Assembly (NCBI GenBank): GCA_964023275.1
Contig: OZ029929.1
Coordinates: forward strand, 558,001-622,000
Direction: 5' to 3'
Source: Norana najaformis
Lineage: Eukaryota > Annelida > Clitellata > Crassiclitellata > Hormogastridae
Length of the DNA: 64,000 nt
Shown here: one piece after another, positions 175-32,328 of the stretch
How positions within the stretch are numbered: the stretch's first letter is position 1
Layout: every line of letters begins with the position of its first letter
Translations under genes and position numbers: made by a program
The notes under the pieces: generated by a model
Seen by the model: only the letters and a program-made list of their open reading frames with translations
Database searches by the model: none
Told to the model about the DNA's origin: nothing

Positions 175-287
175 CTGAACTGTTTTAAGAAGTCTATGAT
201 GTTAGCATCATCCTCCAGCTGCTGAGGCTGGTAAGGTGCCGAGGCGACGAGAGTGGCTAGAAACACGATGCAGACAAATGGAGACAT
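175..287 (-). CDS. IL17-like: IL-17-like cytokine, copy 0: first coding exon only (partial gene)
   Basis: This 113-nt exon begins at an ATG (287-285) and ends in phase 2 at a GTAA donor (174-171). It encodes 37 residues: a signal peptide of about 17 residues (MSPFVCIVFLATLVASA), then a short acidic propeptide-like stretch ending DFLKQF. The same exon precedes the cytokine exon in five complete copies further right, so the rest of this gene should lie beyond the left edge; positions 1-174 are its intron. All 113 nt are identical to exon 1 of copy 3 (18990-19102), more similar than to the adjacent copies 1 and 2. The protein is predicted to be secreted. Its identity rests on the other copies, because no cytokine domain is visible here. 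Confidence 0.75.
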
Positions 288-438
288 GACGACGATTCTC
301 AACAAGTCAAATAATTCAGATATAAATTTATAAATATAAATAATACAAATGCGTAAAATTCGAGATCCTCGGTTAGAAGCTGAACTGTTTGTAGTCTACT
401 GCTTAACTCTGTTTGATTCTGTTCGATCTCTTCGTCCC

Positions 439-446
439 CTTAAATA
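439..446 (-). promoter_or_regulatory. TATA-like core promoter of IL-17-like copy 0
   Basis: On the minus strand this reads TATTTAAG, followed by GGGACGAAGAGATCGAA. It lies about 150 bp upstream of the ATG and is kept in all six copies. A conserved block with the Ets-like core AGGAAG (plus strand gcatgagtaaagaggaagcc, 658-677) lies about 215 bp further upstream. Promoter function is inferred from position and conservation. Confidence 0.5.
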
Positions 447-1216
447 CTCATCCGAAGTCGGTACAATGGGGTGCGTTAACCCCAGTGACGAAATCATGAC
501 TGACAGAAAATTATCCGGCGTTTCAACGTCTCCCCGACACACATACTGTAGACACACAGACTCGCTCCTGGTTATTCTTGAGCCTTGAACGCCACAGGGC
601 CTGCCTCAGACAGGCATTTCCAATGGGTAGGATCATTGTTTCGACAACTTTTGTCCAGCATGAGTAAAGAGGAAGCCTTATATCTTTGCATGTGTTTCGT
701 TTCTATATCATATTTTGACCACGTGGATATATTTAAACACATGCGTGTATCGACGCACGCATGCGTGTTTATGTACAAATATGTTGTATATATAGTTTCG
801 AGGCGTATGCAAAGCCGCCGACGTGTACTTCAGTACACTAACAGGATGTAAACTGGTCGTCATTAATCGTGTGATGTAAACAAGGCCAAGAGGGCCGTAA
901 TTTTGAACGGAGCGCTGTCGCGTAAACGCTCTCTCGGTGTAGGTCAATGCGCCCTGACTAATAAATTACTGTAAGGGAATGTCCTGTATTTATCCGCGGT
1001 TTGAAAGCTGTATGGCGGATGGGGGTGGGGTAAGAGAAACGAGAGCGTGAAGGAAAGAATCGATTCCTTAGTAATGGGTACATATTCACGCTGATTATCA
1101 GGTATATCCCGGATGCATACCCAGAAAGAGACACATTATTATCATTAGTTGAATATCATTATCTATTTATTATTATTACTTGTTACTAATTATTATTAAT
1201 TATTGTTTTATGTTAT

Positions 1217-1470
1217 TATTAATATTACTACTACTACTACAACAACTACAAGATCTACAACAACTACTACAACATTTTTATTGTGTGTCACAGAACTAAG
1301 CAATCTTATTCCTCTCAAAAGTAACATGCACAGACATGAAGTAAGACCTGGACTACTCCAATTACAGACACACCTTCCTCAAAATTCTTATGCAATTGTC
1401 CCTCTATCCATTCATCCATCTATCCATCCATCCATCCACCAAAATGTCCATCCATCCAAATATCCATCCG
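1217..1470. repeat. Simple repeats: (ACT/ACA)n and (CCAT)n
   Basis: An interrupted trinucleotide tract (act, aca) runs from 1222 to 1275, and a CCAT tetranucleotide run from about 1406 to 1470. The open plus-strand frame across both is a by-product of the repeats. Confidence 0.8.
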
Positions 1471-1487
1471 ATGGAAGCAGAAATTAC

Positions 1488-1676
1488 TCAGTTGCAGAAG
1501 ATCCACGAGGCTGGATCGATCCTCGATCCGTGGTAAACGACCTGGTAGTGGGTGTGGTCAGTCATTCCAGAGCCATAGCAACCACAGTGAAGACCTGGTG
1601 CGTAGCAACGGCCTGTCCCTCTGAGACAGTCGCTGGCATAGAAACGCGGTCCGGTTTTCAGTAGAAGATCACAAAG
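1488..1676 (-). CDS. Candidate terminal exon of a small cysteine-rich protein (unknown family)
   Basis: On the minus strand a pyrimidine-rich tract ends in CCACAG at 1682-1677, a good acceptor. From 1676 the frame is open for 62 codons to a TGA at 1490-1488. The peptide has six cysteines at exon residues 2, 17, 24, 31, 33 and 61, including a GLHCGCYGSG core, and ends WIFCN. I do not recognise the family. No upstream exon or signal peptide was found with confidence. The corresponding sequences in the next two repeat units (about 6690-6885 and 14675-14868) are frameshifted and have lost cysteines. This is therefore either the surviving member of a co-duplicated gene or a decaying relic that happens to be open. 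A secreted, disulphide-rich product is only a guess from the composition. Confidence 0.35.
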   Translation of the reverse strand, partial: LCDLLLKTGPRFYASDCLRGTGRCYAPGLHCGCYGSGMTDHTHYQVVYHGSRIDPASWIFCN

Positions 1677-1844
1677 CTGTGGCCTAAAGAAGTGGAAAAA
1701 GCATAAACAATGCCCTCTATGTTTTACTTATAGCTTAGCTTTCTCTAATGATTCTCACACTATTAGCCAAACAATAGTTTTAACGAAAGGGAGTTAGAAG
1801 GAGAAGACATTGGTACCCGCCACTTTCCAGTCCAAAGGTACATC

Positions 1845-4446: not shown

Positions 4447-5512
4447 TTAGGATAACGTTGGCTCCTCGGTCGGGCCCGGCTGGTTGTCCGACTGCTGTGT
4501 TCGTGGAACAGCCAACGTGCATCCAACCTGCCACTTCAGCCAGTCGTCGGTCCACGTGACCACACCAGATGATGACGTCTTTTTGACTTTGATTGGCACG
4601 TAGTAATAGACATGTTCACAGACGTTGGCCGATCCCTCAACCATGGACCCTGTGCATTCAGCTTTGACAAGGTCAGCTGGCTGGCGGTTGGAGTCGGTTT
4701 GGACAGTGTATGTCCAGGGGCAGACGGATCGGTTCTGGAGGTTGGATGTGGAGTCCTGAAGAAGACGGATGGTCAGCGATGCGTCACGTCGTGTCCTAAC
4801 CTTGACCTTTTCGGTGGCTTCTGAAGGTGTCAAGGTTGTGCTGAGAGATTCGTCAGATCTAAACAAGTTAATAAGAAACGTTCTCTGTTTTACAACCATT
4901 GCAATTTCACAGTGTTTGAACGTAATCTAACGTCTACAAATTCCTGTGGTGTAAAGTGTTTTGTCATCCGATTTGACCGAACATTCATTTGTTGCATTCT
5001 AATCTGATCTGATCCAATCTAATCTGATAACTTCTATAGCGCCGTTATTTTATTGCACAAAGTATTTTATTCTAAGCGACACAACATTCAAAATTTGAAA
5101 TCCACGGAGTGATTCGCAATACAACTAAGGTGAATCCAAGGCACCTTTTGATGGTCATTTCTCAATTATATCTAGATACATCTTGAGGCGAGAGGCCCAA
5201 AAGTTAAGAAACCTAACTCTATTCTAGAAAGAGCAAAATACCGCAAAATCTGTATGGTCTGAATGCATTGTCGAGGATAATGCAGCCTAAAAATGGTCTA
5301 AAAGCTTAATCAGGGACTGGACCCAATTCTAGTCGATGGTCGTGATGCGATGACAGTCAGGCGACAATCTAATTACAGATGTTCGATTTTCTAATTTACC
5401 TGAACTGTTTTAATAAGTCTACGATGTCAGCATCCTGCTCCAGCTGCTGAGACTGGTAAGGTGCCGAGGCGACGAGAGTGGCTAAAAACACGATGCAGAC
5501 AAATGGAGACAT
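4447..5512 (-). CDS. IL17-like: IL-17-like secreted cytokine, copy 1
   Basis: Two exons: 5512-5400 (113 nt, ending AG|GTAA) and 4858-4447 (acceptor TTGTTTAG), joined in phase 2 through a split Arg codon to give 174 residues. Residues 1-17 are a signal peptide; 39-80 are a Ser/Thr/Arg-rich linker with a basic RTRR run. The cytokine domain starts at SVCPW (82-86), followed by the NRQP motif (95-98), AEC (104-106), NVC (116-118), YYYVPI (122-127) and VGCT (149-152). These match the IL-17 family pattern of PW, NR.P..L..A.C, VP and VGC. Mature cysteines are only C84, C106, C118 and C151; the second Cys of the usual VGCTC is Leu153. It probably acts as a dimeric secreted ligand of IL-17 receptors in innate immunity (family knowledge). 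Exon 2 differs from copy 2 at one residue (Ala52 here, Val there). The intron (4859-5399) carries an old repeat insertion with ttctatagcgccgtt, present in all copies. Confidence 0.87.
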
Positions 5513-5663: not shown

Positions 5664-5671
5664 CTTAAATA
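5664..5671 (-). promoter_or_regulatory. TATA-like core promoter of IL-17-like copy 1
   Basis: TATTTAAG on the minus strand, about 152 bp upstream of the ATG. The preceding bases read TTAT rather than the GAGT of copies 0 and 3-5, a variant shared only with copy 2. The upstream Ets-like block lies at 5891-5910. Confidence 0.5.
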
Positions 5672-7044: not shown

Positions 7045-7700
7045 AAGGTACATCCATGATAAAAACGCGTTTTAAAACCTCTTAAGGGCGTTAAAGTTGG
7101 AAACACATATAAGCACACATACATGCACACATACAGACACACATACATACATACATACATATATAATAATAATAATTATTATTATTATTACTGTTATTAT
7201 TATTACTATTATTTTTATTATTATTAATAATTACTTACTTGACTAGTTTTATATCTAGCTTCTTATCAGTTCATCCCTTTGGCCTTCGAGACCCTTGGTC
7301 CGATAAATTTACAGGGCCTGGAGTTCTTATCTAATCTGGGTGGACACTTGACCAGGGTTTCCGGAGACCCAAGAGAGACCGCTTTCCTTTTCCAACGTGT
7401 TGCCTGCACAATTCAACGTTTTAATTTGATTGCCTTCCAGGGCACTTTCGAGGAGTCTGACATCAACGAAGATCAGCCATCCCAGAAAACAATTTTTTCA
7501 TCCGGATAATTTTTCAGCTCCCTGAGGGATCATAAATACCTCGGGGCAAAAAAATAATTATAATATTAATAATAATAATAATTATTATTATATATGTATG
7601 CATGTATGTATGAATGTATGCGTGCCTGTATGTGTGCTTATGTGTGTTTCCAACTTTAGCGCCCTTAAGAGGTCTTAAAGTGTTCATTATCATGGATGTA
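7045..7700. repeat. Inverted repeat with ~130-bp arms around a retroelement fragment
   Basis: The left arm (about 7045-7180, running tacatccatg, cctcttaagggcg, gttggaaacac, acataca, ataataat) is the reverse complement of the right arm (about 7565-7700), with a few mismatches. The spacer carries the plus-strand fragment at 7262-7508. The same structure occurs at 15025-15685. Such a foldback arrangement fits a composite element or inverted insertion of two copies of one repeat. Confidence 0.6.
7262..7508 (+). pseudogene. Retroelement polyprotein C-terminal fragment
   Basis: The plus-strand frame reads FAFETLGPINLQG, FLSNLGGHLTRVSGDPRET and FLFQRVACTIQRFN. This resembles a conserved tail segment found after the reverse transcriptase in invertebrate retroelement proteins (FxPIAxETLGP, LGRRI, GDxRET, FLFQRxS). 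Only this segment is present and no RT domain is attached, so it is a 3' fragment. The exact clade is uncertain. Confidence 0.55.
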
Positions 7701-7761: not shown

Positions 7762-8220
7762 GTGCAGACGTTCCAAGCACGAAGGAGCCAATAGGTCTCC
7801 TGAGGACTGACAGCAAGCGGCCCGATGGTGCTACACTTGTTGCTTGGGCGGCTGGTAAATATATGTATGACCTGGGATGCTACAGTGGTCCATACTTGTG
7901 CCATCTTCTACTTGTCGCAGACAGCGATTTCAGCAGGTTCTGCAGCTGAAGAAGCAGCAACCCAAAAGTCTGCAAAATATGCACTTTTGCCTACAACCCA
8001 CAAGTTTGTTCCCATTGCCTTTGAGACCCTTGGTCCAATACATGCTGAGGGCACAGAATTTCTTTCAGAGTTGGGGTGTCGCATTTCAGCAGTCGCCGGA
8101 GACGACCGTGAGACTCGTTTCCTGTTCCAGCGCCTCTCTATCTGTGTCCAGTGCTACAATGCCATTACATTCAGAGGCACATTTTCAGACGGCTGTGAAA
8201 ACTACTGGGACGAGGCCTGA
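7762..8220 (+). pseudogene. Second, longer retroelement polyprotein C-terminal fragment
   Basis: It opens with DVPSTKEPIGLLRTDSKRPDG. Near 7860-7870 the frame must shift by one base to continue as WDATVVHTCA, then KFVPIAFETLGPIHAEG, FLSELG, GDDRETRFLFQRLS and a TGA at 8218-8220. The two frames together follow the usual order of this retroelement tail (EP.GL.R.D.KRPDG, WD.TV, FETLGP, FLFQR). The frameshift makes this copy non-functional. A near-identical copy lies at 15775-16262. Confidence 0.6.
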
Positions 8221-10058: not shown

Positions 10059-11124
10059 TTAGGATAACGTTGGCTCCTCGGTCGGGCCCGGCTGGTTGTC
10101 CGACTGCTGTGTTCGTGGAACAGCCAACGTGCATCCAACCTGCCACTTCAGCCAGTCGTCGGTCCACGTGACCACACCAGATGATGACGTCTTTTTGACT
10201 TTGATTGGCACGTAGTAATAGACATGTTCACAGACGTTGGCCGATCCCTCAACCATGGACCCTGTGCATTCAGCTTTGACAAGGTCAGCTGGCTGGCGGT
10301 TGGAGTCGGTTTGGACAGTGTATGTCCAGGGGCAGACGGATCGGTTCTGGAGGTTGGATGTGGAGTCCTGAAGAAGACGGATGGTCAGCGATGCGTCACG
10401 TCGTGTCCTAACCTTGACCTTTTCGGTGACTTCTGAAGGTGTCAAGGTTGTGCTGAGAGATTCGTCAGATCTAAACAAGTTAATAAGAAACGTTCTCTGT
10501 TTTACAACCATTGCAATTTCACAGTGTTTGAACGTAATCTAACGTCTACAAATTCCTGTGATGTAAAGTGTTTTGTCATCCGATTTGACCGAACATTCAT
10601 TTGTTGCATTCTAATCTGATCTGATCCAATCTAATCTGATAACTTCTATAGCGCCGTTATTTTATTGCACAAAGTATTTTATTCTAAGCGACACAACATT
10701 CAAAATTTGAAATCCACGGAGTGATTCGCAATACAACTAAGGTGAATCCAAGGCACCTTTTGATGGTCATTTCTCAATTATATCTAGATACATCTTGAGG
10801 CGAGAGGCCCAAAAGTTAAGAAACCTAACTCTATTCTAGAAAGAGCAAAATACCGCAAAATCTGTATGGTCTGAATGCATTGTCGAGGATAATGCAGCCT
10901 AAAAATGGTCTAAAAGCTTAATCAGGGACTGGACCCAATTCTAGTCGATGGTCGTGATGCGATGACAGTCAGGCGACAATCTAATTACAGATGTTCGATT
11001 TTCTAATTTACCTGAACTGTTTTAATAAGTCTACGATGTCAGCATCCTGCTCCAGCTGCTGAGACTGGTAAGGTGCCGAGGCGACGAGAGTGGCTAAAAA
11101 CACGATGCAGACAAATGGAGACAT
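10059..11124 (-). CDS. IL17-like: IL-17-like secreted cytokine, copy 2
   Basis: Exons 11124-11012 and 10470-10059, exactly 5612 bp to the right of copy 1 at every boundary. The predicted protein has 174 residues and is identical to copy 1 except for Val instead of Ala at residue 52. It has the same signal peptide, PW, NRQP, AEC, NVC and VGCT motifs and the same four mature cysteines (84, 106, 118, 151). The intron and several kilobases of flank are also nearly identical to copy 1, so the duplication is recent, or gene conversion keeps the two alike, or one is an assembly duplicate. The promoter (11276-11283) and 3' region match copy 1, so expression is probably shared. Confidence 0.86.
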
Positions 11125-11275: not shown

Positions 11276-11283
11276 CTTAAATA
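11276..11283 (-). promoter_or_regulatory. TATA-like core promoter of IL-17-like copy 2
   Basis: TATTTAAG on the minus strand, about 152 bp upstream of the ATG, with the Ets-like block at 11506-11525. It shares the copy 1 variant of the preceding bases. Confidence 0.5.
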
Positions 11284-12032: not shown

Positions 12033-14325
12033 CACTGGCCAACACATAATTTGTTGCCTCAAATGTTAGAACTGTTTCTGGGTATATTTGACCTGCTGAT
12101 TCCAGAAAAGGCACCAGTTTTCTCCCAGCAGGTCTAGTTTTCGAGATATAGAACATTATGCCATATACCAGTCCTTGCCTCTGCTCGTCCATAAAACATA
12201 AGGCTATAGCTATAATTATGTAGTGCTAAATTTATTATGTGATACACTAAATAAACATAATAATACAAATACTTAAAAGAAAATGGTAGTACCTGAAACT
12301 GTACTTACATGATACCAAACAGAACAAGTTTGTTACAAAAATTTCAAGTCATTCGACACCGAAGAAGCTCCTTTTGTACGATTTCCGAGTGTGGCATCTG
12401 CCGGAACAATCGCGCATAATATTCCAGCAATAGTCTGCCATCATGTGTGCATCCCATCTTCCTTGATATCGATTTTCCATTGTTTTGATGTCTTGGTGAA
12501 ATCTTTCACCTTGCTCTTCGCTGAAGTCACCAAGATTCTCTGGAAAGCGATCTAAGTGACTGTGGAGATAATGGACTTTAATGCTCATGTTGCAGCCAAG
12601 CTTGTTGAAATGAAGAAGCATATCCTCTACTAGTTGTGCATAATTGTCTGCCTTCTTGTTGCCAAGAAAATTTTTAGTTACAAGAACAAAGGAAGACCAG
12701 GCACAAGATTCGATTTCATTCATTGATGGTATGAAAAGTGGGTCATTCATAAGTTGCCTGATCTGTGGACCATCGAAGATTCCAGCCTTCAATTTTTCCA
12801 TTGTAATTCCTGGTAACTTGTGTACTATGTATTCGAAGCATGAACCTTCTTTATTCAAAGCCCTGACAAATTGTTTCGTCAGGCCTAGCTTTATATGTAG
12901 TGGTGGCAGTATGATCCTATCTCGTGCCACCAAAGATTCCTTGATTACATTTTGAGCTCCAACCACCATGTCTTTCCTCGAAGGCCAATCTTTTCTTGTC
13001 CAATGTTCATGCTTGGCTCTACTGTCCCAAAGACACAAAAAGCAGGGATACTTTGTGTAGCCACTTTGTTGACCAAGGAGGAAATTTACCATCTTCAAGT
13101 CTACACAAATTACCCATTGATGTTCTTTGTATTTTATCTTTTCCAGTACTAAAGAGATGGCATTGTACTCTTCTTTCATCCTGGTGGAGTGACCGATTGG
13201 AATAGAACCAAATTTGTTGCCGTTATTTAAAAGCACACATTTCAGACTACGTTTTGAACTGTCGATAAAAAGACGCCACTCATCTGGGCTGTAATCCGAC
13301 AGACCAATTTTCTTCAATAAGTTGCTGATGTCATTACAGAATACTAGGTTGTTGTCTTCGGTAAAGAATGGCAGCAAATCCTTTTCTCTGTTTCTATAAA
13401 TTGTAATTTTCGTTCCAGGCTGAAGTGCATTCTTTTCCTTTAGTCTGGACGCAAGCAATTCAGAGGACTCTTTGGAAAGATTTAAGTCCCTGATCAGATC
13501 ACTCAACTCTTTTTGGTCAAAACGTTCACTGTGTGAAGTTGATTGGAAATCACTGTCACTGCCCCCACTTTCTTCACTTTCGTCATCTTGTCCGATATTG
13601 GACATGCAAGTCTCATCGTCTGAGAGCTGAGGTAGTTCACGAAAAGGTGGAACTGGTACAATATCCGAATGCGGAACAGGTCTCCTGGCTGAAGGTATAT
13701 CAGGGTAAGACAACTTGTGACGATTATTTCGATTGATGCCTATGATATTAACCATACAAAAGTAACAGTCGTCGAAGTGGTTTATCTGTTCCCTCCAAAC
13801 CAATTGTCCAGTGGCGCAATTGTTCAATATAAGTTTTGCATACTGTATGAGGAGCCCATTGCTTATCTTGATCTCCAAGTTTCACACCAAAATAACCTAC
13901 ATATGCTCTTTTTACAAACTCAGAAATCGGTTTCCTGTTTGCTTTTAGTGTGTATTCCCCACAAATGTAGCAGAATATGTCTGGATGGTTAATGCAGCTC
14001 CGTCTGGAAGTAGCCATAACCTTAAGGATGTTCGCATCTGAGGAATTAAATGACTAACCTAAAAAATAGTAAGAACATGTAGTTATTTAATGCTCACATT
14101 CACAGATTGTTCTTGCGACCAACTCTTAATATGCCCTAAGACGACTGCGGCTGCTCTAGCTTTCAGGAGGCGGTTAATATAGGCTATAAATGCTGACTTC
14201 AGCATAATCTATTTACATAGTTCGAAACCATGAAACGCTGTATAAGCACAAATAAATTCTAAATGAGGCCATGAATTTAGTGCTGAGTAAGCTGTAGGCT
14301 ACGGAATAGTTATTTCGTTGAATCA
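12033..14325 (-). mobile_element. 2.3-kb inserted element carrying a broken ORF
   Basis: Comparing this unit with the neighbouring unit at 6343-6430 shows 2.3 kb of extra DNA here, bounded by the ~75-bp direct repeats. The left end starts cactggccaac. No matching inverted terminus (ccagtg) is seen at the right end, so that end may be truncated. The only coding content is the minus-strand gene at 12358-14017. It is absent from the other IL-17 units, so it arrived after the unit was duplicated, or was lost elsewhere. Confidence 0.6.
12358..14017 (-). pseudogene. Broken transposon-like gene of a multicopy invertebrate family
   Basis: Two overlapping minus-strand frames make up one gene. The first (ATG at 14017) reads MATSRRSC, FCYICGEYTLK, KLGDQDKQWAPHTVC and RHWT. 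The second continues VWREQINHFDDCYFCMVNIIG, ARRPVPH, a Ser/Asp/Glu-rich linker, CVDLKMVNFLLGQQ, YPCFLCLWDSRA, LPPLHIKLGLTKQFV, GDFSEEQGERFHQDI and MADYCW, ending near 12358. Cys pairs (CYICGEY, DCYFC, CFLC) suggest metal binding. As I recall the family, about ten residues normally lie between RHWT and VWRE; here they are missing and the frame shifts near 13790-13800. The rest, over 480 codons, is open. Similar proteins occur in many copies in arthropod and cnidarian genomes with no defined function; transposon origin is inference. Confidence 0.6.
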
Positions 14326-15024: not shown

Positions 15025-15682
15025 CCAAAGGTACATCCATGATAAAAACGCGTTTTAAAACCTCTTAAGGGCGTTATAGTTGGAAATACATATAAGCACA
15101 CATACATGCACACATACAGACACACATACATACATACATACATACATATAATAATAATAATTATTATTATTATTATTATCATTATTACTATTATTATTAT
15201 AATTATTAATAATTACTTACTTGACTAGTTTTATATCTAGCTTCTTATCAGTTCATCCCTTTGGCCTTCGAAACCCTTGGTCCGATAAATTTACAGGGCC
15301 TGGAGTTCTTATCTAATCTGGGTGGACACTTGACCAGGGTTTCCGGAGACCCAAGAGAGACCGCTTTCCTTTTCCAACGTGTTGCCTGCACAATTCAACG
15401 TTTTAATTTGAATGCCTTCCAGGGCACTTTTGAGGAGTCTGACATCAACAAAGATTACAAGAATACAATTTTTTCATCCGGATAATTTTTCAGGTCCCTG
15501 AGGGATCATAAATATCTCGGGGCAAAAAAATAATTATAATAATAATAATAATTATTATTATTATTATATATGTATGCATGTATGTATGAATATATGCGTG
15601 CCTGTATGTGTGCTTATGTGTGTTTCCAACTTTAGCGCCCTAAGAGGTTTTAAAGCGCTCATTATCATGGATGTATTTTTAT

Positions 15683-15778: not shown

Positions 15779-16262
15779 AGTGTAGACGTTCCAAGCACGA
15801 AGGAGCCAATAGGTCTCCTGAGGACTGACAGCAAGCGGCCCGATGGTGCTACACTTGTTGCTTGGGTGGCTGGTAAATATATGTATGACCTGGGATGCTA
15901 CAGTGGTCCATACTTGTGCCATCTTCTACTTGTCGCAGACAGCGATTTCAGCAGATTCTGCAGCTGAAGAAGCAGCAACCCAAAAGTCTGCAAAATATGC
16001 ACTTTTGCCTACAACCCACAAGTTTGTTCCCATTGCCTTTGAGACCCTTGGTCCAATACATGCTGAGGGCACAGAATTTCTTTCAGAGTTGGGGCGTCGC
16101 ATTTCAGCAGTCGCCGGAGACGACCGTGAGACTCGTTTCCTGTTCCAGCGCCTATCTGCGTCCAGTGCTACAATGCCATTACATTCAGAGGCACATTTTC
16201 AGACGGCTGTGAAAACTACTGGGACGAGACCTGATTTCTCAGAGATCATTTTATACTCCTAA
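15779..16262 (+). pseudogene. Retroelement polyprotein C-terminal fragment (second copy of 7762-8220)
   Basis: It has the same EPIGLLRTD, WDATVVH, FETLGPIHAEG and FLFQRLS segments with the same frame break, plus a further small deletion after FLFQRLSA. It was duplicated together with the cytokine unit rather than inserted independently. Confidence 0.6.
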
Positions 16263-18083: not shown

Positions 18084-19102
18084 TTAGGATAACGTTGGCT
18101 CCTCGGTCGGGCTCGACTGGTTGGTCGACTGCTGCGTTCGTGGAACAGCCAACGTGCATCCAACCTGCCACTGCAGCCAGTCGTCGGTCCACGTGACCCC
18201 CCCGTTTGATGACGTCGACTTGACTTTGATTGGCACGTAGTAATAGACCGCCTCGCAGACGTTGGCCGATCCTTCAACCATGGACCTTGTGCATACAGCT
18301 TCGACAAGGTCAGCTGGCTGGCGGTTGGAGTCGGTTTGGACACGGTATGTCCAGGGGCAGACGGATCGGTTCTGGAGGTTGAATGTGGAGTCCTGAAGAA
18401 GGCGGATGGTCAGCGATGCGTCACGTCGTGTTCTAACCTTGACCTTTTCAGTGACCTCTGAGGGGGTCAAAGTTGTGCTGAGAGATTCGTCAGATCTGAA
18501 CAAATTAATAAGAATCGACGTTTGCTTTACAACCATTGCAATTTGAGTGTGGTTGAATGTGATCTAATGTGTACGATTATATGCAAAGTGTGATGTTGTG
18601 CGAATTGGTCAAACTTTCATATGTTGCATTCTAATCTGATCTCATCTGATATCACCTGAAGGCTTCCATAGCGTCGTCGTCTTATTACACAAGGCATTTT
18701 ATATTAAACAACATGGCACTCAACTTTCAAGATCGATTTATTGACTAGCACAATCACTGTTTAAAATCCGAAGGAACTCCAGAGGGTCAGTGTTCATTGT
18801 TACCAAAATGCAAATAGCGGTGAGAGGCCCTAACTTTAGAAAGAGCAAGGCAGCTTAAGAACTGCATTGTCTAAATGCAAAGTGGAAAACTAAGTAGCCT
18901 AAGAATTTGTCTAAAGGCAGAATCCATGATGGCTTTATGAGATAAGTCGGATGAGAGACTAATTAGAGATGATTGAATTTCTAATTTACCTGAACTGTTT
19001 TAAGAAGTCTATGATGTTAGCATCATCCTCCAGCTGCTGAGGCTGGTAAGGTGCCGAGGCGACGAGAGTGGCTAGAAACACGATGCAGACAAATGGAGAC
19101 AT
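18084..19102 (-). CDS. IL17-like: IL-17-like secreted cytokine, copy 3
   Basis: Exons 19102-18990 (113 nt) and 18495-18084 (412 nt), predicting 174 residues. Exon 1 is identical to copy 0. In exon 2 the IL-17 landmarks are kept: SVCPW (82-86), NRQP (95-98), AVC in place of AEC, NVC, YYYVPI and VGCT, with mature cysteines 84, 106, 118 and 151. It differs from copies 1 and 2 at roughly 18 positions, mainly in the linker, the AVCTRS loop, the TSSNGG hairpin and the C-terminal tail (QSTNQSSPTEEP), so it is an older paralogue that may differ in receptor or partner choice (inference). The intron runs 18496-18989. Promoter at 19283-19290. Confidence 0.86.
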
Positions 19103-19282: not shown

Positions 19283-19290
19283 CTTAAATA
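19283..19290 (-). promoter_or_regulatory. TATA-like core promoter of IL-17-like copy 3
   Basis: GTATTTAAG on the minus strand, 181 bp upstream of the ATG (farther than in copies 1-2 because of an insertion). The Ets-like block is at 19514-19533, with gtatgag in place of gcatgag. Confidence 0.5.
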
Positions 19291-20069: not shown

Positions 20070-20119
<50 letters not shown>

Positions 20120-20140
20120 TGACTGACTGACTGACACGTA
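20060..20140. repeat. (CAGA)n(CTGA)n microsatellite
   Basis: About 14 cagA units followed by ctga units upstream of copy 3. Confidence 0.9.
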
Positions 20141-20229
20141 GCTAGACGTAGGGTGCATACACTCAGATAAACAGACTCACAGGTAGACATACAGACATCC
20201 CCTGTGGTTTACGACAGTTACGACAATTC

Positions 20230-21140
20230 GCATCTCAGGACGGAGATAAAGTAAGTGCGGTCTTTAGAGTTTGTTCCCGGATGCTCTGGGATTCGGCCGC
20301 CAAAGAGGGAGCGGCCACTGAGGCCAGGCAGTACATCGTCTCCGTCTGCGAGCCTTTGATTGGCAGCTGCCTGTCTCGGCAACACGCAACGGCCGCGCGT
20401 AAAATCCGCCAGCGGGCAATGTGATGATAGCTAGCACGAGTCGTGCCTAAGAGGAGTGGTTTGACGATTTCCCAGGCGATTGCATATGGCTTCGGCACGT
20501 GTCATGGGGTTGTTCCCCAAACCTCGGAGGTCACCACAAAAGACTGCGCGTATTCAACGATAACGTCGTCCCGGATTCGATTCTTGATGGAAAAAAGGCA
20601 ACAGAGACTGTCATGCAACACGTTGACAACGGTGGTCCGGTTGCTGGATTCCAGTCATGACGGAAATCTCCCAAATGGAGAGCCACTCCTGCGGCGACTA
20701 TGATACTATGACACTACGATACTACGACTCTATCACTCTGATTAGACAGAACAGTTACCTTACTTTACCACTCACTGCCTTACATCAACATATCTTAATA
20801 TAATACATTGCAATACAATGTAATGTAATACAATACAGCTGTAGTTTGGTAATGATCTCGTTACTATGTTCAGAGAGCTGCACACTGCAGCGGGCAACAG
20901 GAAACGTTACGAACTATAAACAGACTGGATCCGTGTAAGTCTTCGGTTTAGAGCGAGAGACTGCACACAAAGAAGACTGTTTCACAAAATATAGAATCTA
21001 GATCTTAAATTAGCTCGACATAAATGCATCCTGATTTAGATGACCTTACCCTATCATATCTTACCCGATCTGACTTTACCTTACGTAGCTTTAATAAACC
21101 AGCTAACGGTTTAAATAAATCCTGGAGAATGTCAAGGTTG
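20230..21140. repeat. Duplicated block, part 1 (partner at 33655-34790)
   Basis: Matches 33655-34790 in order: the ggatgctctgggattcggcc segment, the ttcttgatggaaaaa and aggcaacagagactgtcatg segment, the run of tacgatactacgactctatc, and the agagcgagagactgcacaca segment. It contains no intact gene. It lies upstream of copy 3 as its partner lies upstream of copy 5, so the cytokine genes and this flank were duplicated together. Confidence 0.6.
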
Positions 21141-21189
21141 TCAATTGTTCACATGTTGTTGTCAATTAGCATTAATATTGTAGCTAATG

Positions 21190-21390
21190 TGAGACGTGGT
21201 GGTGTAATGGTATGTTCGATGCCTCGTAACCGGAGGGTCGCGGGTTCGAATCTACCTCACGCCACTGGGTAGCGACCTTGGACAAGTTGCTCACCCACAA
21301 TTGCCTGTGAGGAAGGCAACGGGAAACCACCTCACTCATCTCATCCCCGGGTGGCATAAAGCCAGTGGACCTGCCTTCGGGCAGAAAACG

Positions 21391-21435
<45 letters not shown>

Positions 21436-21436
21436 T
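21190..21436 (+). repeat. tRNA-derived SINE with (CAT)n tail, family C
   Basis: The A-box-like segment tggtgtaatggta and the B-box-like gggttcgaatc lie at tRNA-like spacing. They are followed by a non-tRNA body ending in a cat trinucleotide tail. A reverse-strand copy is at 55570-55797. It is a retroposon, not a tRNA gene, because the 3' half does not close a tRNA fold. Confidence 0.75.
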
Positions 21437-21619
21437 GTAGCTAATACTGTAATTAACATTTGGCCTATTAAGCCTAGGCCTGCTATTACTATAAGACTGT
21501 TTAGGCTAGTAATATTATCCTTTTGACTCAAGGTAAAAATGATCACATTAGAAATTGAACTAGATAAAATAAAATCAAATGAAATCATTCGTATCAGTCT
21601 TGGCGGTATTTCTGATTTA

Positions 21620-21867
21620 TTAAAGTTAAATCTTGAAACAGGAAACAGATATTGCAAAGGTAGAAATTTTAAACAACAGCCCAGTTCTGCAGTTAATTGG
21701 GTTTTGGAAACAGCTCTATGACGCCGGAAAATCCCCAGGCGTCTAAAGTTAAATCTTGAAACAGGAAACAGATATTGCAAAGGTAGAAATTTTAAACAAC
21801 AGCCCAGTTCTGCAGTTAATTGGGTTTGGAAACAGCTCTATGATGCCGGAAAATCCCCAGGCGTCTA
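21620..21867. repeat. 124-bp direct repeat, two copies
   Basis: The segment beginning taaagttaaatcttg and ending ccccaggcgtc occurs at 21620-21743 and again at 21744-21867 with very few differences. Confidence 0.85.
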
Positions 21868-22544
21868 AAAATAGCACCAAGTGCACATGTACTCGAGTAG
21901 TCCATACAAAGGTGCTCCTTGTGTGCATGAGTGTTTGGAGGAAATGATTAACAACTGGTGCTCAGGTGTTTTCACGACGGACTGGATCTTACCCCACGAC
22001 CACTTGAGGAGTTGTTTATTAGCTCGTAAATGAGTCTCAACCTCGTTTATTCGCATTGGATACCGTTCAGAAATTTACTATCGTTTGGGCTATTATTGGG
22101 CTTTTATTCGTCTTTACTAAGCAACGGAAAAGTACTTCGGTGGTTACACGCTGTACAAATTAAAATCGCTGCCATTATTTGGTTTGAAAGATCGGAGTGA
22201 CGAGTAGCTTGAAGTTAATTGGCTCACGTTTGAAATTCTGCAGCTTTTCCAGTAGTATCCTGAAATAGGAAAGAGCATTAACATCGACTCTTCCAATCTT
22301 TCCAGCAATTTAACTCTTTTTCCTCTTTTTGTATGCTTTTGGAAATCCGCAGAATTTTAAACACGTGCTATCTTAGAAACTCTTGAATCGATATGGCGTC
22401 GGTATTTAAGATGGTCTTCGTGGTTTTTGTGTGGCTTTGAAAAATTTCGGGATTTTCCATTTTCTGTACAACTCAATGCATGGTGAAACTTTTAATGGTC
22501 CTCTTGCCATCATAAATCGCATTAATGTGCATCTTACCAGCACT

Positions 22545-23095
22545 TTGATGTGCCCCCTCTGGAATGAACTCCCGCCAGACTTGCGACAATAATCTGATCC
22601 ATACTACGAACCAGATTTAACCATAGACGTGGGGAGCGGTTCCCCGGCCCTCTTGCTTACTTGTCGGCGCCCCTCAGACCTGAAACATCTATGTTAGGCT
22701 GCCAGAGTGTGGCGCCCTTCTGGAAATGCCCTTGACTCTCAAGAAAGCAATCCTGGAGCCGCCACTGCCACAAACTCAACACCACTTCTCCACTTCGAAT
22801 CTCTGCGCAGGTCTTTTCCTTAAAACTGAAAACACTCCTGTTCCACAAATCCTATACTGAGTCCTCTTGTCCTTCGTATCCTCTCGTTGTTTCAATTCAA
22901 AACACCATCCACTGTAGCTGTCTGCTTGTCTGACCTTTGGATCTTGACCTAGGACCGGATCTGACTGTCTCTGCCTATCGATTTTGTTTTGACTGAGTGC
23001 CCGTGAATAAGCCAGTTCCCACGACTTCGCTTTCCTTTGGCGCTGTAGAAATCTCGAATTTACCATTACGATTACGGTGTCGGCAGGTAAGACCA
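22545..23095 (+). repeat. Non-LTR retrotransposon 3' end fragments
   Basis: The plus strand has ctctggaatgaactcccg (LWNELP) followed by PDLR, the usual C-terminus of a CR1/L2/RTE-type reverse transcriptase ORF. Next comes the family's 3' region with gattttgttttgactga, gaataagc and gctgtagaaatctcg, ending in an attacgattacg tail. An unrelated segment interrupts it near 22600-22770. Other 3' ends of this family lie at 26740, 40840, 44860, 46555, 47230 and 52215. Confidence 0.65.
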
Positions 23096-24145
23096 TTAAT
23101 CCTTCCCTCCCACATGGGGTTTTCTAAGCGGGCGCTGCCTCCCACTCATTGGGGAGGTAATCGTCGAGAAATGGCAATCGATGGTGAAACACCCTGCCTT
23201 ACATCAACATATCTTAATACAATACAATGAAATACAATATAATGTAATACAATACAATACAGCTGTAACTTGATAATGATCTCCTTACAAAGTTCAGAGA
23301 TGCACATCGAAGCGGGCAGCAGGAAACATTACGAACTACAAAGAGACTGCGTCGGTGTAAGTCTTCAGTTTAGAGCGAGGGACTGCACACACGGAAGATC
23401 GGTTCACAAAATATAGAATCTAGATCTTAAGTTCATGTGAATAGCTTTGATGTGAAAAATGAAGACTGGCTTTTAGACACTGAATCATTGATATACATAT
23501 TTATAAGTCTATGCATGCTCAAGAGGCCCAATCTAAGTCATCAAGTGAAGGGGCGAAGTAAAGGTGGGCTGAAAAAAAAACGTAAGTGTGCCACGCTTTA
23601 GGGGTCGTTGCTCCTGTACACCCCCGCTCAAGTGACTCCTCTCGCTGCATTAAAAATTATATTTACCACTTCATTAAAAATATCTATTTACCACTTCATT
23701 AAAAATATCTATTTATCACTTCATTAAAAATATCTATTTACCACTTCATTAAAAATATCTATTTACCACTTCATAGATGCATATATTTGACAGTAGTTTT
23801 GTGTTGTCATGTCGGAAGAGCCTCTGATGAGTTTATCTTAAAGTGTCGCTATATGAATTTGCGATTACAATTACAGTTACAAAATCAATATATGACGTTC
23901 TGCGCTTGAAACGGGGCTGTAAAATCAACCTGCAGCTTGGCATGAAAAACACTTGTTAATTTTGAGACCGTGCTGTCCTCTGGCGAATGAAACATAAACT
24001 AAAACGTAATCATTCCGCAGATGTCGCTTCTCTGACACGCTTCTGAGGTCACTAAATCGAACTGACGTGTGACATCTAGCGAAAGAGACAGAACTAAAAT
24101 GCCGGGTTTGTTCCGGCCTTGCTTTAGTAATCATAATTGTAATCC
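23060..24145. repeat. Duplicated block, part 2 (partner at 35325-36060)
   Basis: Shares ordered segments with 35325-36060 (tcccactcatt, atggcaatcgatggtgaaa, gaagactggcttttag, tatgcatgct, aagaggccc, atgcatatatttga). No gene was recognised in it. Confidence 0.55.
23655..23775. repeat. 25-bp minisatellite, about five units
   Basis: Unit atttaccacttcattaaaaatatct in tandem, with one c/t variant. The partner block at 35690 has no such expansion. Confidence 0.9.
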
Positions 24146-24732
24146 CGAAAATTTCTAAAGCGCTGCTTCAAAGATAAGCGCAAGGAACCAGCATAGTTAC
24201 AAGTGCTGCGTCAAGTCAGAGGGGTTGTTCAAAAATGCCAAGGGAACAAATTCGGGTTGCAAGAAGACCAGAGAGAGCAAGTCAGACAGGAGCTGTTACT
24301 GTGGGCTGTATTTAGTTTGAGAGAAATGGGAAGGCGGCCGATTGGAGGGATCAGGGTAAGATTTCTTGAAAAGATGAGACTTAAGCAGTAGACTTCAACG
24401 GTAGATTTATTTCGCTCCAGTGTGTGGTTGAAACAATAGAATTCTATTGAGCACAAGACTTGTTGGAGGGACAGCATCCAGAGCTGTGACCATTTAAAAG
24501 TTCTCTGACATGACTCAATTCATTCGCTATGCAACAGGCTATGTGCATTCTCTGCTTCTGATTTTTAGGCGAAAAAGTAAATTTTCCAAACGTGAATAAA
24601 TTCACACCCTATCGCTCCTTCCAATTGTTCTTCTCCCATCCAGATGGTTCACACCCACTAAAGTTATATGTCCCATTTCTTCACGCATTTCTCTTCTACC
24701 CTGCATAGGCCTTTCCCTTCCACTAATCTCTG

Positions 24733-24915
24733 TGGGGCACGGTGGCCGATTGGTTAGAGCGTTCGGCTTGTAACGCGGCGAGTACGGGTTCGAGGGTCCT
24801 CCTCTGAGGCGGTTACTGTGCAGGGACCTTGAGCAGGTCATTCACTGACAATTGCTCTGCGGCATCAGTTGATGCTTTGTCGTTGGATAGTGACGCCTAA
24901 TAAATACAATAATAT
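24733..24915 (+). repeat. tRNA-derived SINE, family A
   Basis: The head is ggggcacggtggccgattgg, then ttagagcg, ttgtaacgcgg and B-box-like gggttcgag. A body with gaccttgagca and ccta|ataaa follows, with a short AT tail. Related copies are at 36642, 38372, 43007 (plus) and 49661, 50380, 56160, 56355 (minus). Confidence 0.75.
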
Positions 24916-26295: not shown

Positions 26296-27627
26296 TTAAG
26301 ACGTCGTTGGCTCTTCAGTCGGGTTCGGGTGATACGCAGGCCACGTCCGTGGTGCAACCGACCTGCATCCAACCGACCACTTCAGCCACTTGTCGACCCA
26401 CGTGATCACCCCGGTTTCCGACGTAGACTTGAATTTGATTGGCAGGTAGTAGAAGAACGGTTCGCAGACGTTGGCTGATCCATCGACAATAGACGATGTG
26501 CATTCGGCGTGGGCAAGATCAGCTGGCTGGCCATTAAAGTCGTTTAGGACACGGTGTGTCCAGGGGCACACGGATCGGTTCTGGAGGTTGGGCGTGGAGT
26601 CATGAAGAAGCGATGCGTGGCGTCGTGTCCTAATCTTGCCCTTACTGGTGACTTCTGAAGGGGTCAAGGTTGTGCTGAGAGATTCGTTTGATCTGAACAA
26701 GTAAGTAAGAAGCGATATCTCTTTTATCGCCTGCAATTTCTGCTTCGGACTTTCACTCAAAACATTCCTCCTTCACAGATCGTACCCTGGCACCCCTTCT
26801 TCCTCTTATCTCTCTCTCCTCTCCAACCCCAAACACCATCCCCCTTAGCTGCCACGCTGTCTCTCCGTCTGACGTTTGGATCTCCACCTCGAACCGAACC
26901 CCTTTGCCTATCGATTTTGTTTTGACTGAACGCATGTGAATAAGCTGGCCCCAGCGGCGCGGCTTTCGTAGGGCGCTGTAGAAATCTCGGAATTACGATT
27001 ACGATATTATAAAAATTGCAAATTTCACTCTGGCTGAATGTGATCTAACGTATACGATTTTTTGTGTAGTCTAGCATAATGTTGTGCGATTTGATTGAGC
27101 ATTAATTTGTTGTATTCTTGTCTGATCTAAGCTGATCTAATCTGAAAACTTCTATAGCGCCGTCATCTTATTACACAAGACATCTTATTCTAAGCAACAT
27201 GGCATTCAAAATATGAATGCATTTAATGACGCGCACAGTGACTGCCGTGAATCCGAGGGAACTCGAGCGGGTCATTGATACCAAGATGCATTGAGAGGCG
27301 AGAGGCCCGAGGGTTAAGAAACCTAACTCTATTCTAGAAAGAGCGAAGTATCTCAAGAACTGCGTGGTCTAAATGGACAGTCGTGAACTACTAAGTAGCC
27401 TAAGAATTGGTCTAAAAGCAGATCCAAGGACTCGACATAAATTACAGTCGATGGCTTTGACGAGATAACAGTCGGATGACAGACTAATTAGAGAAGATCG
27501 AATTTCTAATTTACCTGAACTGTTTTAGGAAGTCGACGATTTCAACATCATCCTCTAGCTGCGGAGGCTGGTAAGGTGCCGAGGCGACGAGAATGGCTAG
27601 AAACACGATGCAGAGGAAAGGAGACAT
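26296..27627 (-). CDS. IL17-like: IL-17-like secreted cytokine, copy 4
   Basis: Exons 27627-27515 (113 nt) and 26692-26296 (397 nt), in phase 2, predicting 169 residues. The signal peptide reads MSPFLCIVFLAILVASA. The domain has SVCPW (78-82), AEC (100-102), NVC (112-114), YYLPI and VGC (145-147), so mature cysteines are 80, 102, 114 and 147. The conserved NRxP motif reads NGQP here, losing the Arg, a change shared only with copy 5. The VGC is followed by Arg-Ser, with no second Cys. The linker is five residues shorter than in copies 1-3. The intron (26693-27514) is longer because a retrotransposon 3' end lies in it at about 26740-27005. Confidence 0.85.
26740..27010 (+). repeat. Non-LTR retrotransposon 3' end inside the copy 4 intron
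   Basis: Same family as 46555-46860: atcgattttgttttgactga, a gtgaataagctgg segment, gggcgctgtagaaatctcg and an attacgattacgat tail. It is antisense to the cytokine gene and absent from the introns of the other copies. Confidence 0.7.
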
Positions 27628-27782: not shown

Positions 27783-27790
27783 CTTAAATA
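27783..27790 (-). promoter_or_regulatory. TATA-like core promoter of IL-17-like copy 4
   Basis: GTATTTAAG on the minus strand, 156 bp upstream of the ATG. I could not find the Ets-like block that lies further upstream in copies 0-3 and 5. Confidence 0.5.
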
Positions 27791-28700: not shown

Positions 28701-28861
28701 GAATGAAACGTAGCCGTTCCAGATTTTCATTAGTGTCTCCGGACAATTTTTTTCACCAACTGAAGGATAATACCTGGTAAAAAATAATAGTATTAGGTCC
28801 TCACTGCCCCTTGTTGTCCAAGGTCTTTAGACAGTAACCACCTCCGGGTATATAGACGCAC

Positions 28862-29045
28862 TTTGGCTTTTGAGACTCTTGGCCCAGTCAACAGCAGTGG
28901 CCTACCCTTCATAACAGACTTAGGGCGCTGTCTCTCGTATAACCGGTGACACGAGAGATATCAGTTATCTTTTCCAGCGCATTGCTATCACAATTGAATG
29001 CTTAAATTCTATGACCATCTCTGCCATGCAGGATGTTTAATAGGT
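28862..29045 (+). pseudogene. Decayed retroelement C-terminal fragment
   Basis: FGFETLGPVNSSGLPFITDLGR followed by stops and frame changes; it matches the segment at 7262 and 7762. The neighbouring minus-strand RT fragment lies in the opposite orientation, so the two are separate insertions. Confidence 0.45.
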
Positions 29046-29089
29046 CTGATGACCTCACATAGCCCTGTCGAACCCTTTTCTTGACGAGG

Positions 29090-29435
29090 AACCCTCGGGT
29101 AGTGTACCGGCTGCTACCACTCTGGCTTGCTGTTTACAGTAGAATCCAGAAAGCAGGTTGACGATATGAATAGGGTAACCCATGTCTATCAAGGCTAGGC
29201 AGAGCTTCTAATGTGAGACACAGTCAAAAGCCTTCTTTAAATCAACAAAAGCACAGATAGAGGGACTGCTGATTCTCTCTAGTAATCTGCTTGCTGATTC
29301 TAAGATTTGTGACTAGATCTCGTGTTCCCGTTCCTCTTCGAAATCCAGCTTGTTCATCTGCCACCTCAGATTCTGTCTTCATCCTAATCCCTCCCAGGAT
29401 AATCTTTAGGATGATTTTACTGGCATGCGCGTCCA
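29090..29435 (-). pseudogene. Non-LTR retrotransposon reverse transcriptase fragment
   Basis: The minus strand reads SKIILKIILGGIR, VADEQAGFRRGTGTRDLVTN and, after a frame change, FVDLKKAFDCVSH, then DMGYPIHIVNLL and QARVVAAGTLPEGS. EQAGFR..G.RD and FVD.KKAFD.V are fingers/palm motifs of non-LTR reverse transcriptases. One internal stop and at least one frameshift make it inactive. Confidence 0.75.
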
Positions 29436-29855
29436 GAAGCGATAGTGGTTGTTAGGGCAGCAGTGGCCACGGTTGTTGCACCTGCATTGTCTCATATCGC
29501 CTTTCTTTGGAAGAGAAAGGAAGATTCAGTTTATCCAACCTACTCGCCATTCCCAGCCTTCCATAATGCCTCACATACTCAATGCATCTTTCCACTGTTG
29601 TTTCTCAACTATGCTGGAACAGCAAGCTGAAACCACATCTTAGTTATTTAATCGCTCTTAATTCCGAGGCTAACCACTGAGGGAGAGTATTAGGCCTAAA
29701 CCTGATGCGGGCAGTTCATCCTTGACGGCACGTATACGATGGATACAGAAAGAATATCAACAATAAGTCAAGCTAAAACTTAAGTTTTGCTATTAAGTAG
29801 CGCTATTCTATGTAAAGAGTTGAAAACAAAAAATGACGCAATTAAGAGTTTTCCA

Positions 29856-31279
29856 TTTAATTATTTTTGTAAAACAAACATATTACACTTATATACAATG
29901 AACATCTGAAAACAACAATAAATTTAAGTAAATAAGAAACGTCCGATAAAATATGTAGGCCCCTAAATAAGACTACACAATTGTTATCCTGGTTCTTTTA
30001 AACAAACCAATTCCATTGAAGGAATCAAGTGAAGGAACTCAAGTGATGGAACTCAAATGAAGGAATTCAAGTGATGGAACTCAAATGAAGGAATTCAAGT
30101 GATGGAACTCAAGTGAAATAATGCCTTCAATAACACGTGTTAAACATTGAAACAGAGACTATAAATTCGACATGGCACTCTGTAACAACAGTATTAACTA
30201 AATCGTCATTTAACAATACTATAGTTTTCGAGCTAAATTAACTTTAGCTTTAATATTGACAGCAAACAATCGACGAAAACGGAGAAGTGGTTCCAAGAAA
30301 GAAGCACTTTTTAAAATGCAGAGAATTCATAACTCGGAGAAGTCATAACTAAGCGATTACCGAGGAGGGACGATAATAGAAAAACTTCCTGATAAGTGTC
30401 CATTCACAGGCAAAGCGCAAGATGCAAAAACCAATATTTTAAAATACGAAACCTGAAATGATAGCATTCCACCAAAGCACAATAGTCAGTAAGTTGTTAA
30501 AATGACCTGACTGTCCAACGTGCAATGCAAGAAATTACTGCGGAACCTCGATTAAGAAATGCAATCTCGTCCAAATAAACCAAGCAGTATATGAAATCTC
30601 ACGAGCAAAAGACTGACTCTCAGAATGCAACAATCTCAGCGAATCGTAAACAGAATCAAACAGCGGAAATAAGATGATACGGCTGAGCAATATCAAAAGA
30701 ACAACAACTGCGTGTAAAAAGACAGCTCGCTTAAACAGTTTGAACAAACCGCAGTAAGAACAATAATCTCTCGAATACGGTTTCCATCTCTGAACTGAAG
30801 AACTATAATAATGCCGGGTTAGCTCACAGGATGATGAAAACGATGACAACTAAGGAGAAGAAGATGGTGATTCTTAAACTCTCGAATACTCGAAAAAAGT
30901 CCCCTATAAGCACCACAAAACAATATATAAGTTCACAAAGAGAAAAAATTAGACCAAATATGTGATTAAATACTATACTGAATTTAATGTCATTCAATTA
31001 ATGCAATTATTAATTATTTCTTAAATAATTAACGGCAGAATTGATTAATGGTAGGGCGGAACCCCACAATGGTGTAGATGTAACCCAGGGTGGTGCCATT
31101 CTCCTAAAAATGGTCAGTCAAACCCAGTCAGTCATTGGTTTAGCAAATATGTTAATCAATAGGTCTAGAATCTTCTATTGAATCGTTTCCTCGTATCAAT
31201 CGGTCCAGTATAATACTGGGATCCTTGAAGTGGTGTGGTTGATCTTGAAAAAGTACTCTTCTTTCTCGGGTTTGGCTCC
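29856..31279 (-). other. Predicted long 3' UTR of IL-17-like copy 5
   Basis: About 1.4 kb, related throughout to the region after copies 1-3, with minus-strand ATTAAA at 29861-29856. The position of the AUUUA cluster (about 30910-30960) is eroded and holds no pentamer run. A minisatellite lies at 30025-30120. Confidence 0.38.
30025..30120. repeat. Minisatellite, ggaactcaaatgaagga type
   Basis: Alternating ggaactcaagtgat and ggaattcaagtgat units, about six in tandem. Confidence 0.85.
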
Positions 31280-32328
31280 TTAAGTTATCGTTGGCTCCTC
31301 GGTTGGGCTCGGCTTTTTGGCCGGCTTCAGCAGCGGTGTAAACGAAGTGCATCCAACCGACCACTTCAGCCACTTGTCGACCCACATGTCCACCCCGGTT
31401 TCCGACGTAGACTTGATTTTGAATGGCAGGTAGTAGAAGAACGGTTCGCAGACGTTGGCTGATCCATCGACAATAGACGATGTGCATTCGGCGTGGGCAA
31501 GATCAGCTGGCTGGCCATTAAAGTCGTTTAGGACACGGTGTGTCCAGGGGCACACGGATCGGTTCTGGAGGTTGGATGTGGAGTCCTGAACAAGCGATGT
31601 CTGGCGACGTGTCCTAATCTTGCCCTTACTGGTGACTTCTGAATGGGTCAAGGTTGTGCTGAGAGATTCGTTTGATCTGAACAAATAAGTAAGAAGCGAT
31701 GTTTCTTTTGTTACCATTGCAAATTTCACTCTGGCTGAATGTGACCTAACGTATAAGATATCTTGTGTAGTCTAGCATAATGTTGTGCGATTTGATTGAG
31801 CATTAATTTGTTGTATTCTTGTCTGATCTAAGCTGATCTAATCTGAAAACTTCTATAGCGCCGTCATCTTATTAAACAAGACATCTTATTCTAAGCAACA
31901 TGGCATATAAAATATGAATGCATTTAGTGACGCGCACAGTGACTGCTGTGAGTCCGACAGAACTCGAGCGGGTCGTAGATACCAAGATGCATTGAGAGGT
32001 GAGAGGCCCGAGGGTTAAGAAACCTAACTCTATTCTAGAAAGAGCGAAGTATCCCAAGAGCTGCATGGTCTAAATGCATAGTCGTCATCTACTAAGTAGC
32101 CTAAGAATTGGTCTATAAGCAGAACCAAGGACTCGACTTAAATTACAGTCGATGGCTTTGACGAGATAACAGTCGGATGACAGTCTAATTAGAGAAGATC
32201 GAATTTCTAATTTACCTGAACTGTTTTAGGAAGTCGACGATTTCAACATCATCCTCTAGCTGCGGAGGCTGGTAAGGTGCCGAGGCGACGAGAGTGGCTA
32301 GAAACACGATGCAGAGGAAAGGAGACAT
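31280..32328 (-). CDS. IL17-like: IL-17-like secreted cytokine, copy 5
   Basis: Exons 32328-32216 and 31676-31280, phase 2, predicting 169 residues. It is closest to copy 4: same NGQP in place of NRQP, HAECTSS, NVCEPFFYYLP and VGC, with cysteines at 80, 102, 114 and 147. The linker (RQTSLVQD) and C-terminal tail (FTPLLKPAKKPSPTEEP) differ, so the region after the last cysteine has changed most between the two. The intron (31677-32215) lacks the retrotransposon end found in copy 4. It is the right-most member of the array and lies next to its promoter at 32484-32491. Confidence 0.85.

Follow-up and report, generated by a model that had tools for sequence, protein, structure and literature searches.

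A seven-gene cluster of probable IL-17-family cytokines in the annelid Norana najaformis, with coding exons most likely homogenised by gene conversion

What is the short two-exon gene that recurs along one contig of the annelid Norana najaformis, and how did its copies come to resemble one another more closely in their exons than in their introns? We have analysed a 64,000-nucleotide (nt) stretch of contig OZ029929.1 (C17:558001-622000, hereafter the window), taken from an assembly of 608.4 Mb in 17 contigs. A first-pass annotation of this stretch had read the repeated gene as a tandem array of interleukin-17 (IL-17)-like cytokines. We computed gene structures, the state of the reading frames, family membership, copy number in the assembly and the pattern of divergence among the copies. 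The locus is very probably a lineage-specific group of seven cytokine genes of the IL-17 family, predicted to encode secreted precursors, and sequence exchange appears to have shaped five of them.

On the minus strand of the window, between 175 and 32328, six copies of a first exon and five of a second exon mark a series of two-exon genes, all with phase-2 junctions; this part of the first-pass annotation was borne out in full. The features are as follows (genes are numbered from the left end of the array, and gene 1 lies outside the window):

Gene 2, exon 1 (start codon, putative signal peptide, first part of the propeptide): 175-287, minus strand
Gene 3, exon 1: 5400-5512, minus strand
Gene 3, intron (541 nt, GTAAAT...TTTAG, phase 2): 4859-5399, minus strand
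Gene 3, exon 2 (rest of the propeptide, RTRR site, IL-17 domain, stop codon): 4447-4858, minus strand
Gene 4, exon 1: 11012-11124, minus strand
Gene 4, intron (541 nt): 10471-11011, minus strand
Gene 4, exon 2: 10059-10470, minus strand
Gene 5, exon 1: 18990-19102, minus strand
Gene 5, intron (494 nt): 18496-18989, minus strand
Gene 5, exon 2: 18084-18495, minus strand
Gene 6, exon 1: 27515-27627, minus strand
Gene 6, intron (822 nt): 26693-27514, minus strand
Gene 6, exon 2 (under the Pfam cut-off): 26296-26692, minus strand
Gene 7, exon 1: 32216-32328, minus strand
Gene 7, intron (539 nt): 31677-32215, minus strand
Gene 7, exon 2 (under the Pfam cut-off): 31280-31676, minus strand

The five introns that lie within the window follow the GT-AG rule with the donor GTAAAT and the acceptor TTTAG or TTCAG, and they measure 494-822 nt. 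The spliced open reading frames of genes 3, 4, 5, 6 and 7 are all complete, at 174, 174, 174, 169 and 169 amino acids. Copy-to-copy tblastn matches within the 64 kb have expectation values (E) from about 5e-15 to 8e-92, and the same search against the window returned nothing beyond the listed exons with E <0.2 (best 0.24), which excludes chance likeness. The annotation had also proposed that the array runs past the left edge of the window. It does, by the second exon of gene 2 (C17:557226-557637, minus strand) and by a single further gene, gene 1 (C17:551698-552785), which is inverted on the plus strand, tail to tail with gene 2. No additional copies were found by tblastn in the next ~33 kb leftward (C17:518001-551600). 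The whole array comprises seven genes over about 39 kb, with an exon-1 to exon-1 spacing of 4.7-8.5 kb; the head-to-tail order claimed for it holds for six genes, gene 1 facing the opposite way. Open frames, matching splice sites and GTAAAT donors are present in all seven genes, and indels, compared in six of the 21 gene pairs, leave gaps of 3 or 12 nt in exons and of 1 to 283 nt in introns. We considered chance open reading frames and rejected them, since every frame is open between matching splice sites and the exon gaps in the six pairs are multiples of three.

The intron of gene 6 is 283 nt longer than that of gene 7 because it contains, near its acceptor, a dispersed repeat of ~250-280 bp (26726-27005). 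Relatives of this repeat lie at about 22.8, 40.9, 45.0, 46.6, 47.2 and 52.2 kb, and also to the left of the window.

To which family do these genes belong? Profile, sequence search and structure ranking place them in the IL-17 family, and the IL-17-like identity given in the first-pass annotation holds. Three of the five window proteins exceed the Pfam IL17 (PF06083) cut-off of 24 bits, with 28.8, 29.7 and 30.1 bits. The best solved relative is IL-17F, found both by a PDB profile search (E 8e-5) and by phmmer (E 7e-6), and the sequence matches of the array proteins are IL-17F, IL-25 and IL-17A. With a low-confidence model as the query, Foldseek rows 1-14 are IL-17-family ligands or their complexes, and rows 1-5 of the VIA structural list are IL-17 entries. 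Several results weigh against this assignment. Genes 6 and 7 score 15.7 and 16.1 bits, below the Pfam cut-off; confidence is low in both structure models, with a mean predicted local distance difference test score (pLDDT) of 38.1 for the five-paralogue input and 59.5 for the mature domain alone; no Foldseek row has an E as good as 0.001; and one of the two canonical knot disulfides is apparently missing. The two proteins under the cut-off are 60-65% identical in exon 2 to the three that pass. A genome-wide search for the IL17 family listed four of the seven array genes above the cut-off and missed the other three, so that its eight places are a lower bound for the IL-17 count of the genome.

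Could the genes belong instead to another cystine-knot family, Spaetzle- or neurotrophin-like, that merely resembles IL-17? A cleaved propeptide, which we take to be typical of neurotrophins, would suit such a family, and Spaetzle does occur among the fold matches (Foldseek ranks 15 and 17; VIA ranks 6, 28 and 33). However, IL-17 rows outrank Spaetzle in both structural lists, and it is IL-17F, IL-25 and IL-17A that the sequences match and the Pfam IL17 profile that three of the five proteins pass. We have rejected Spaetzle or neurotrophin membership on these rankings and regard it as scarcely credible.

As IL-17 proteins, the products of the array carry the RS-x-x-PW, AxC and VGC motifs of human IL-17F, IL-17A and IL-25 and, in most copies, D-x-N-x-x-P. 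They differ from the human proteins in having CPW where these have SPW, in lacking the second cysteine of CxxxxC and of CxC, and in adding a CExVYY cysteine and an RTRR site. The PW, NRxP, AxC, VP and VGC pattern reported earlier for the array is not universal, as genes 6 and 7 have NGQP for NRQP and LP for VP. Read from the sequence, exon 1 encodes the hydrophobic segment MSPFxCIVFLAxLVASA and about 20 more residues; exon 2 supplies, in order, RTRR, the IL-17 domain and a short unconserved tail. RTRR, at residues 59-62, does not vary among the five window proteins and is also present in genes 1 and 2; cleavage there would leave a mature chain of about 107-112 residues. The furin consensus is R-x-K/R-R; because RTRR fits it, a cleaved propeptide is likely, and the array proteins are likely to be furin-cleaved proproteins. 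We found no report of furin or a propeptide in invertebrate IL-17 in the open-licence literature searched.

The domain cysteines of the array number four, in CPW, AxC, CExVYY/CExFYY and VGC. Those of CPW and CExVYY/CExFYY, which may form the third cysteine pair of CPW-type invertebrate IL-17, are present in all seven genes, the CExVYY cysteine standing seven residues ahead of the VP motif. Elsewhere in the genome there are at least four dispersed IL-17 paralogues, one each on contigs C12, C16, C8 and C6. When the 11 genes are aligned, the C12 paralogue has eight domain cysteines, and the array and the paralogues on C16, C8 and C6 share the same four, with two additional cysteines near these core positions in the C6 paralogue. 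We take the knot disulfides of IL-17F to be C72-C122 and C77-C124. The equivalents of C72 and C122 are kept; those of C77 and C124 are absent from all seven array genes and from three of the four dispersed paralogues, and the C12 paralogue retains them. Because the equivalents of both C77 and C124, presumably a pair, are among the four positions without a cysteine, a whole canonical disulfide has seemingly been lost: the array seems, on this alignment, to have given up the C77-C124-type bond and kept the equivalent of C72-C122.

Reduced-cysteine IL-17 is not new as such, since no more than four cysteines are conserved in isoforms 18 and 21 of the mussel (PMC8353272; which four is not given in the sections available) and sea urchin subfamilies 3 and 9 are without the two C-terminal cysteines (PMC5457136); these and the other papers cited are drawn on in excerpt. 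By analogy with such published four-cysteine or cysteine-poor members, the missing knot pair would mark a divergent member of the family and not a non-member. A further paper, as excerpted, describes an invertebrate IL-17 cysteine that replaces a vertebrate serine (PMC4517768); the CExVYY cysteine may correspond to it.

How have the copies diverged? Within genes 1-5, nine of the ten pairs differ at 2-8% of four-fold sites and at 20-32% of intron bases (Fisher p 1.1e-4 to 2.2e-8). The remaining pair, genes 3 and 4, is a fresh duplicate that differs at 0/94 four-fold sites and 1/511 intron bases. Between genes 1-5 on one side and genes 6 and 7 on the other, four-fold and intron divergence are alike, at 23-28% in all ten pairs (p >=0.65), and they are also alike within the pair 6-7 (p 0.34). 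The inverted gene 1 takes part in the pattern, with 3/80 four-fold sites and 96/483 intron bases differing from gene 2. Mosaic similarity is seen along individual genes as well. Genes 2 and 5 share exon 1 without a single difference (113/113 positions), with 81% identity in the 250 nt upstream and 72% in the intron; genes 3 and 5 are 94-98% identical in their 3' flanks and 68% in their introns. In FastTree trees the partner of gene 2 is gene 5 for coding sequence (support 0.93), genes 3/4 for the 500 nt upstream (1.00) and gene 1 for the intron (0.90). The common 3' structure proposed earlier for the whole array applies to genes 3-5 (92-99% alike), other pairs being 44-79% alike.

The most likely explanation, judging from the sequences, is that short gene-conversion tracts have homogenised the coding exons of genes 1-5 while the introns stayed diverged. 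Slow evolution of the exons as a whole cannot explain the pattern, because four-fold sites diverge like introns across the two groups. A rival explanation is selection on synonymous sites: the exons are under coding constraint, and they might carry an additional synonymous constraint that keeps them similar. Yet in all ten pairs across the subgroups four-fold sites have diverged as quickly as introns, so that synonymous sites are not generally constrained, and the complete identity of exon 1 between genes 2 and 5 lies in a diverged context; we consider synonymous selection highly improbable as the source of the exon similarity. Two points count against gene conversion. The pairwise Fisher tests share sequences, so their p-values are not independent, and the codon-model tree built on all of the coding sequence groups gene 5 with genes 6/7 and not with gene 2. 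The coding topology is not firm, because FastTree and the codon-model tree place gene 5 differently. In the open-licence literature, a search of titles and abstracts found no report of gene conversion in molluscan IL-17.

The near-identity of genes 3 and 4 raises the possibility that some copies, chiefly these two, are false duplications, that is, two haplotypes assembled in tandem. Besides the counts of 0/94 and 1/511 given above, the two units can be aligned over 3.6 kb with about 97% identity, a difference no larger than the heterozygosity of many marine invertebrates. On the other side, the stretch from -1000 to -500 differs by 12% between genes 3 and 4, and the introns of genes 1, 2, 5, 6 and 7 and of the 3/4 pair are mutually 6-32% diverged, so that no fewer than six loci, or else very old alleles, would still be left. 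False duplication is in our judgement unlikely, with seven separate genes the preferred count.

A ~2.3-kb insertion lies between genes 4 and 5 at 12033-14325; the gene 3 unit is without it, though otherwise 97-98% identical. It is flanked by a duplicated stretch of ~75 bp and holds a 510-codon minus-strand frame with no Pfam match. It looks like a recent mobile element.

Selection on the two parts of the precursor is given here by codon-model estimates, used instead of pairwise NG86 ratios of non-synonymous to synonymous change (dN/dS), with the proviso that conversion can bias omega. For the prepro part (the first 62 codons) omega is 0.37 and a value of 1 is rejected (log-likelihood, lnL, -490.81 against -495.91 at omega 1), so that this part is under constraint. 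For the mature part omega is 0.78, indistinguishable from 1 (lnL -1056.54 against -1057.27), a value compatible with relaxed constraint or with diversification of the ligand and no proof of positive selection. The earlier suggestion of birth-and-death evolution is supported by the ages of the copies, from the near-identical genes 3/4 to about 25% divergence at four-fold sites between genes 1-5 and genes 6/7, together with the mosaic similarity.

What might the cluster do? In the course of events that we infer from family membership and sequence features, repeated duplication, with one copy inverted, would have built up the cluster, and each gene would give rise to a secreted precursor with a signal peptide from exon 1, a short propeptide ending in the furin-type RTRR site, and a mature chain. 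The mature chains would most likely dimerise, and the dimers would most likely engage IL-17 receptors on epithelia or haemocytes and switch on NF-kB-type immune genes, as expected for the family. Upstream of the start codon, at -159 to -188, all seven genes have the TATA-like element TATTTAAG, which opens a 29-nt block invariant across the array. In the window it is found at the following places:

Gene 2, TATA-like TATTTAAG at -159: 439-446, minus strand
Gene 3, TATA-like TATTTAAG at -159: 5664-5671, minus strand
Gene 4, TATA-like TATTTAAG at -159: 11276-11283, minus strand
Gene 5, TATA-like TATTTAAG at -188: 19283-19290, minus strand
Gene 6, TATA-like TATTTAAG at -163: 27783-27790, minus strand
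Gene 7, TATA-like TATTTAAG at -163: 32484-32491, minus strand

One result speaks against a cytokine role. NF-kB, AP-1 and interferon-stimulated response element (ISRE)-type consensus motifs, in the forms we take to be standard, are absent from the 500 bp upstream of all seven genes. Their lack neither supports nor excludes immune induction; it does count towards a different reading, in which the products are IL-17-fold hormones or neuropeptide-like factors and not immune cytokines. Against hormones, repeated duplication with a mature-part omega near 1 is, as we understand it, more usual for immune ligands. The relevant precedent is crustacean female sex hormone (CFSH; PMC6056722, as excerpted), an IL-17 homologue that acts as a crab neurohormone and whose precursor is a preprohormone with a dibasic site. 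The likeness to the array lies in the layout of signal peptide, propeptide and basic cleavage site ahead of an IL-17 domain; the difference is that the CFSH mature chain has eight cysteines, whereas that of the array has four. We regard the hormone reading as quite unlikely. A more extended version of the cytokine reading is conceivable, if doubtful: a reduced-cysteine clade made up of the array and the paralogues on C16, C8 and C6 would have shed one knot disulfide as a whole pair and kept a canonical and an invertebrate-specific pair, its members would be furin-activated, and the array would be a library with conversion-reshuffled mature exons whose co-expressed copies could form many heterodimers.

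Tandem arrays of IL-17 genes are already published, and the present one leaves the picture of IL-17 tandem expansion in marine invertebrates unchanged. The sections available of PMC8353272 describe such arrays in Mytilus galloprovincialis, Mizuhopecten yessoensis, Octopus bimaculoides and Saccoglossus, give two exons as the commonest mussel IL-17 structure, and report no expansion in the two gastropods examined there. Those repertoires resemble the array in their tandem repeated genes, the two exons (mussel), the CPW motif and the four-cysteine isoforms 18/21; in contrast, homogenisation limited to exons goes unmentioned in the same sections. The purple sea urchin has eight two-exon SpIL17-1 genes and an adjacent SpIL17-10a in 59.8 kb of one scaffold (PMC5457136, in part). 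This cluster shares with ours the tandem two-exon genes but is from an echinoderm, and the urchin exon 1 encodes Met and one residue, whereas in the array exon 1 covers the putative signal peptide and the first part of the propeptide. Excerpts of other papers report IL-17 expansion in Octopus minor (PMC6279123), and, among gastropods, four IL-17 homologues in Aplysia (PMC9334734) and twelve (PMC5440852) or 8 (PMC8353272) in Biomphalaria. The array adds a chromosome-level example of birth-and-death evolution of invertebrate IL-17, and its copies of graded age with intact frames make gene conversion and rapid change of the mature ligand separable. The four-cysteine pattern, if confirmed, would show which knot disulfide the IL-17 fold can spare.

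The window also holds repeats and other genes. Between the stretches 20090-24908, upstream of gene 5, and 33531-36816, upstream of gene 7, there is piecewise collinearity at 70-85% identity, which suggests that a larger segment was duplicated earlier; some of these pieces match, in addition, dispersed repeats in other parts of the window. Two related plus-strand frames (FIPLAFETLGP / FVPIAFETLGP) recur between the genes, at 7243-7509, 7804-8220, 15225-15485 and 15822-16262. The two of these four frames that were scanned had no Pfam match; we take them to resemble the tail of a non-long-terminal-repeat (non-LTR) retrotransposon. To the right of the array a homeobox gene of at least two exons lies at 38810-39551 on the minus strand (Homeodomain, E 4e-14; the other exon 0.0016, below the cut-off), presumably of paired type by its look. 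A carnosine N-methyltransferase gene of several exons follows at about 50000-54500 on the minus strand, with a CARME match (E 2e-16) in one of the two frames scanned, none in the second, and the other exons recognised by eye. Serine/arginine-rich frames at about 56650-57960 on the minus strand, with one weak match to the AFF4 C-terminal domain (E 0.0024, below the cut-off), are possibly part of an AF4/FMR2-family gene.

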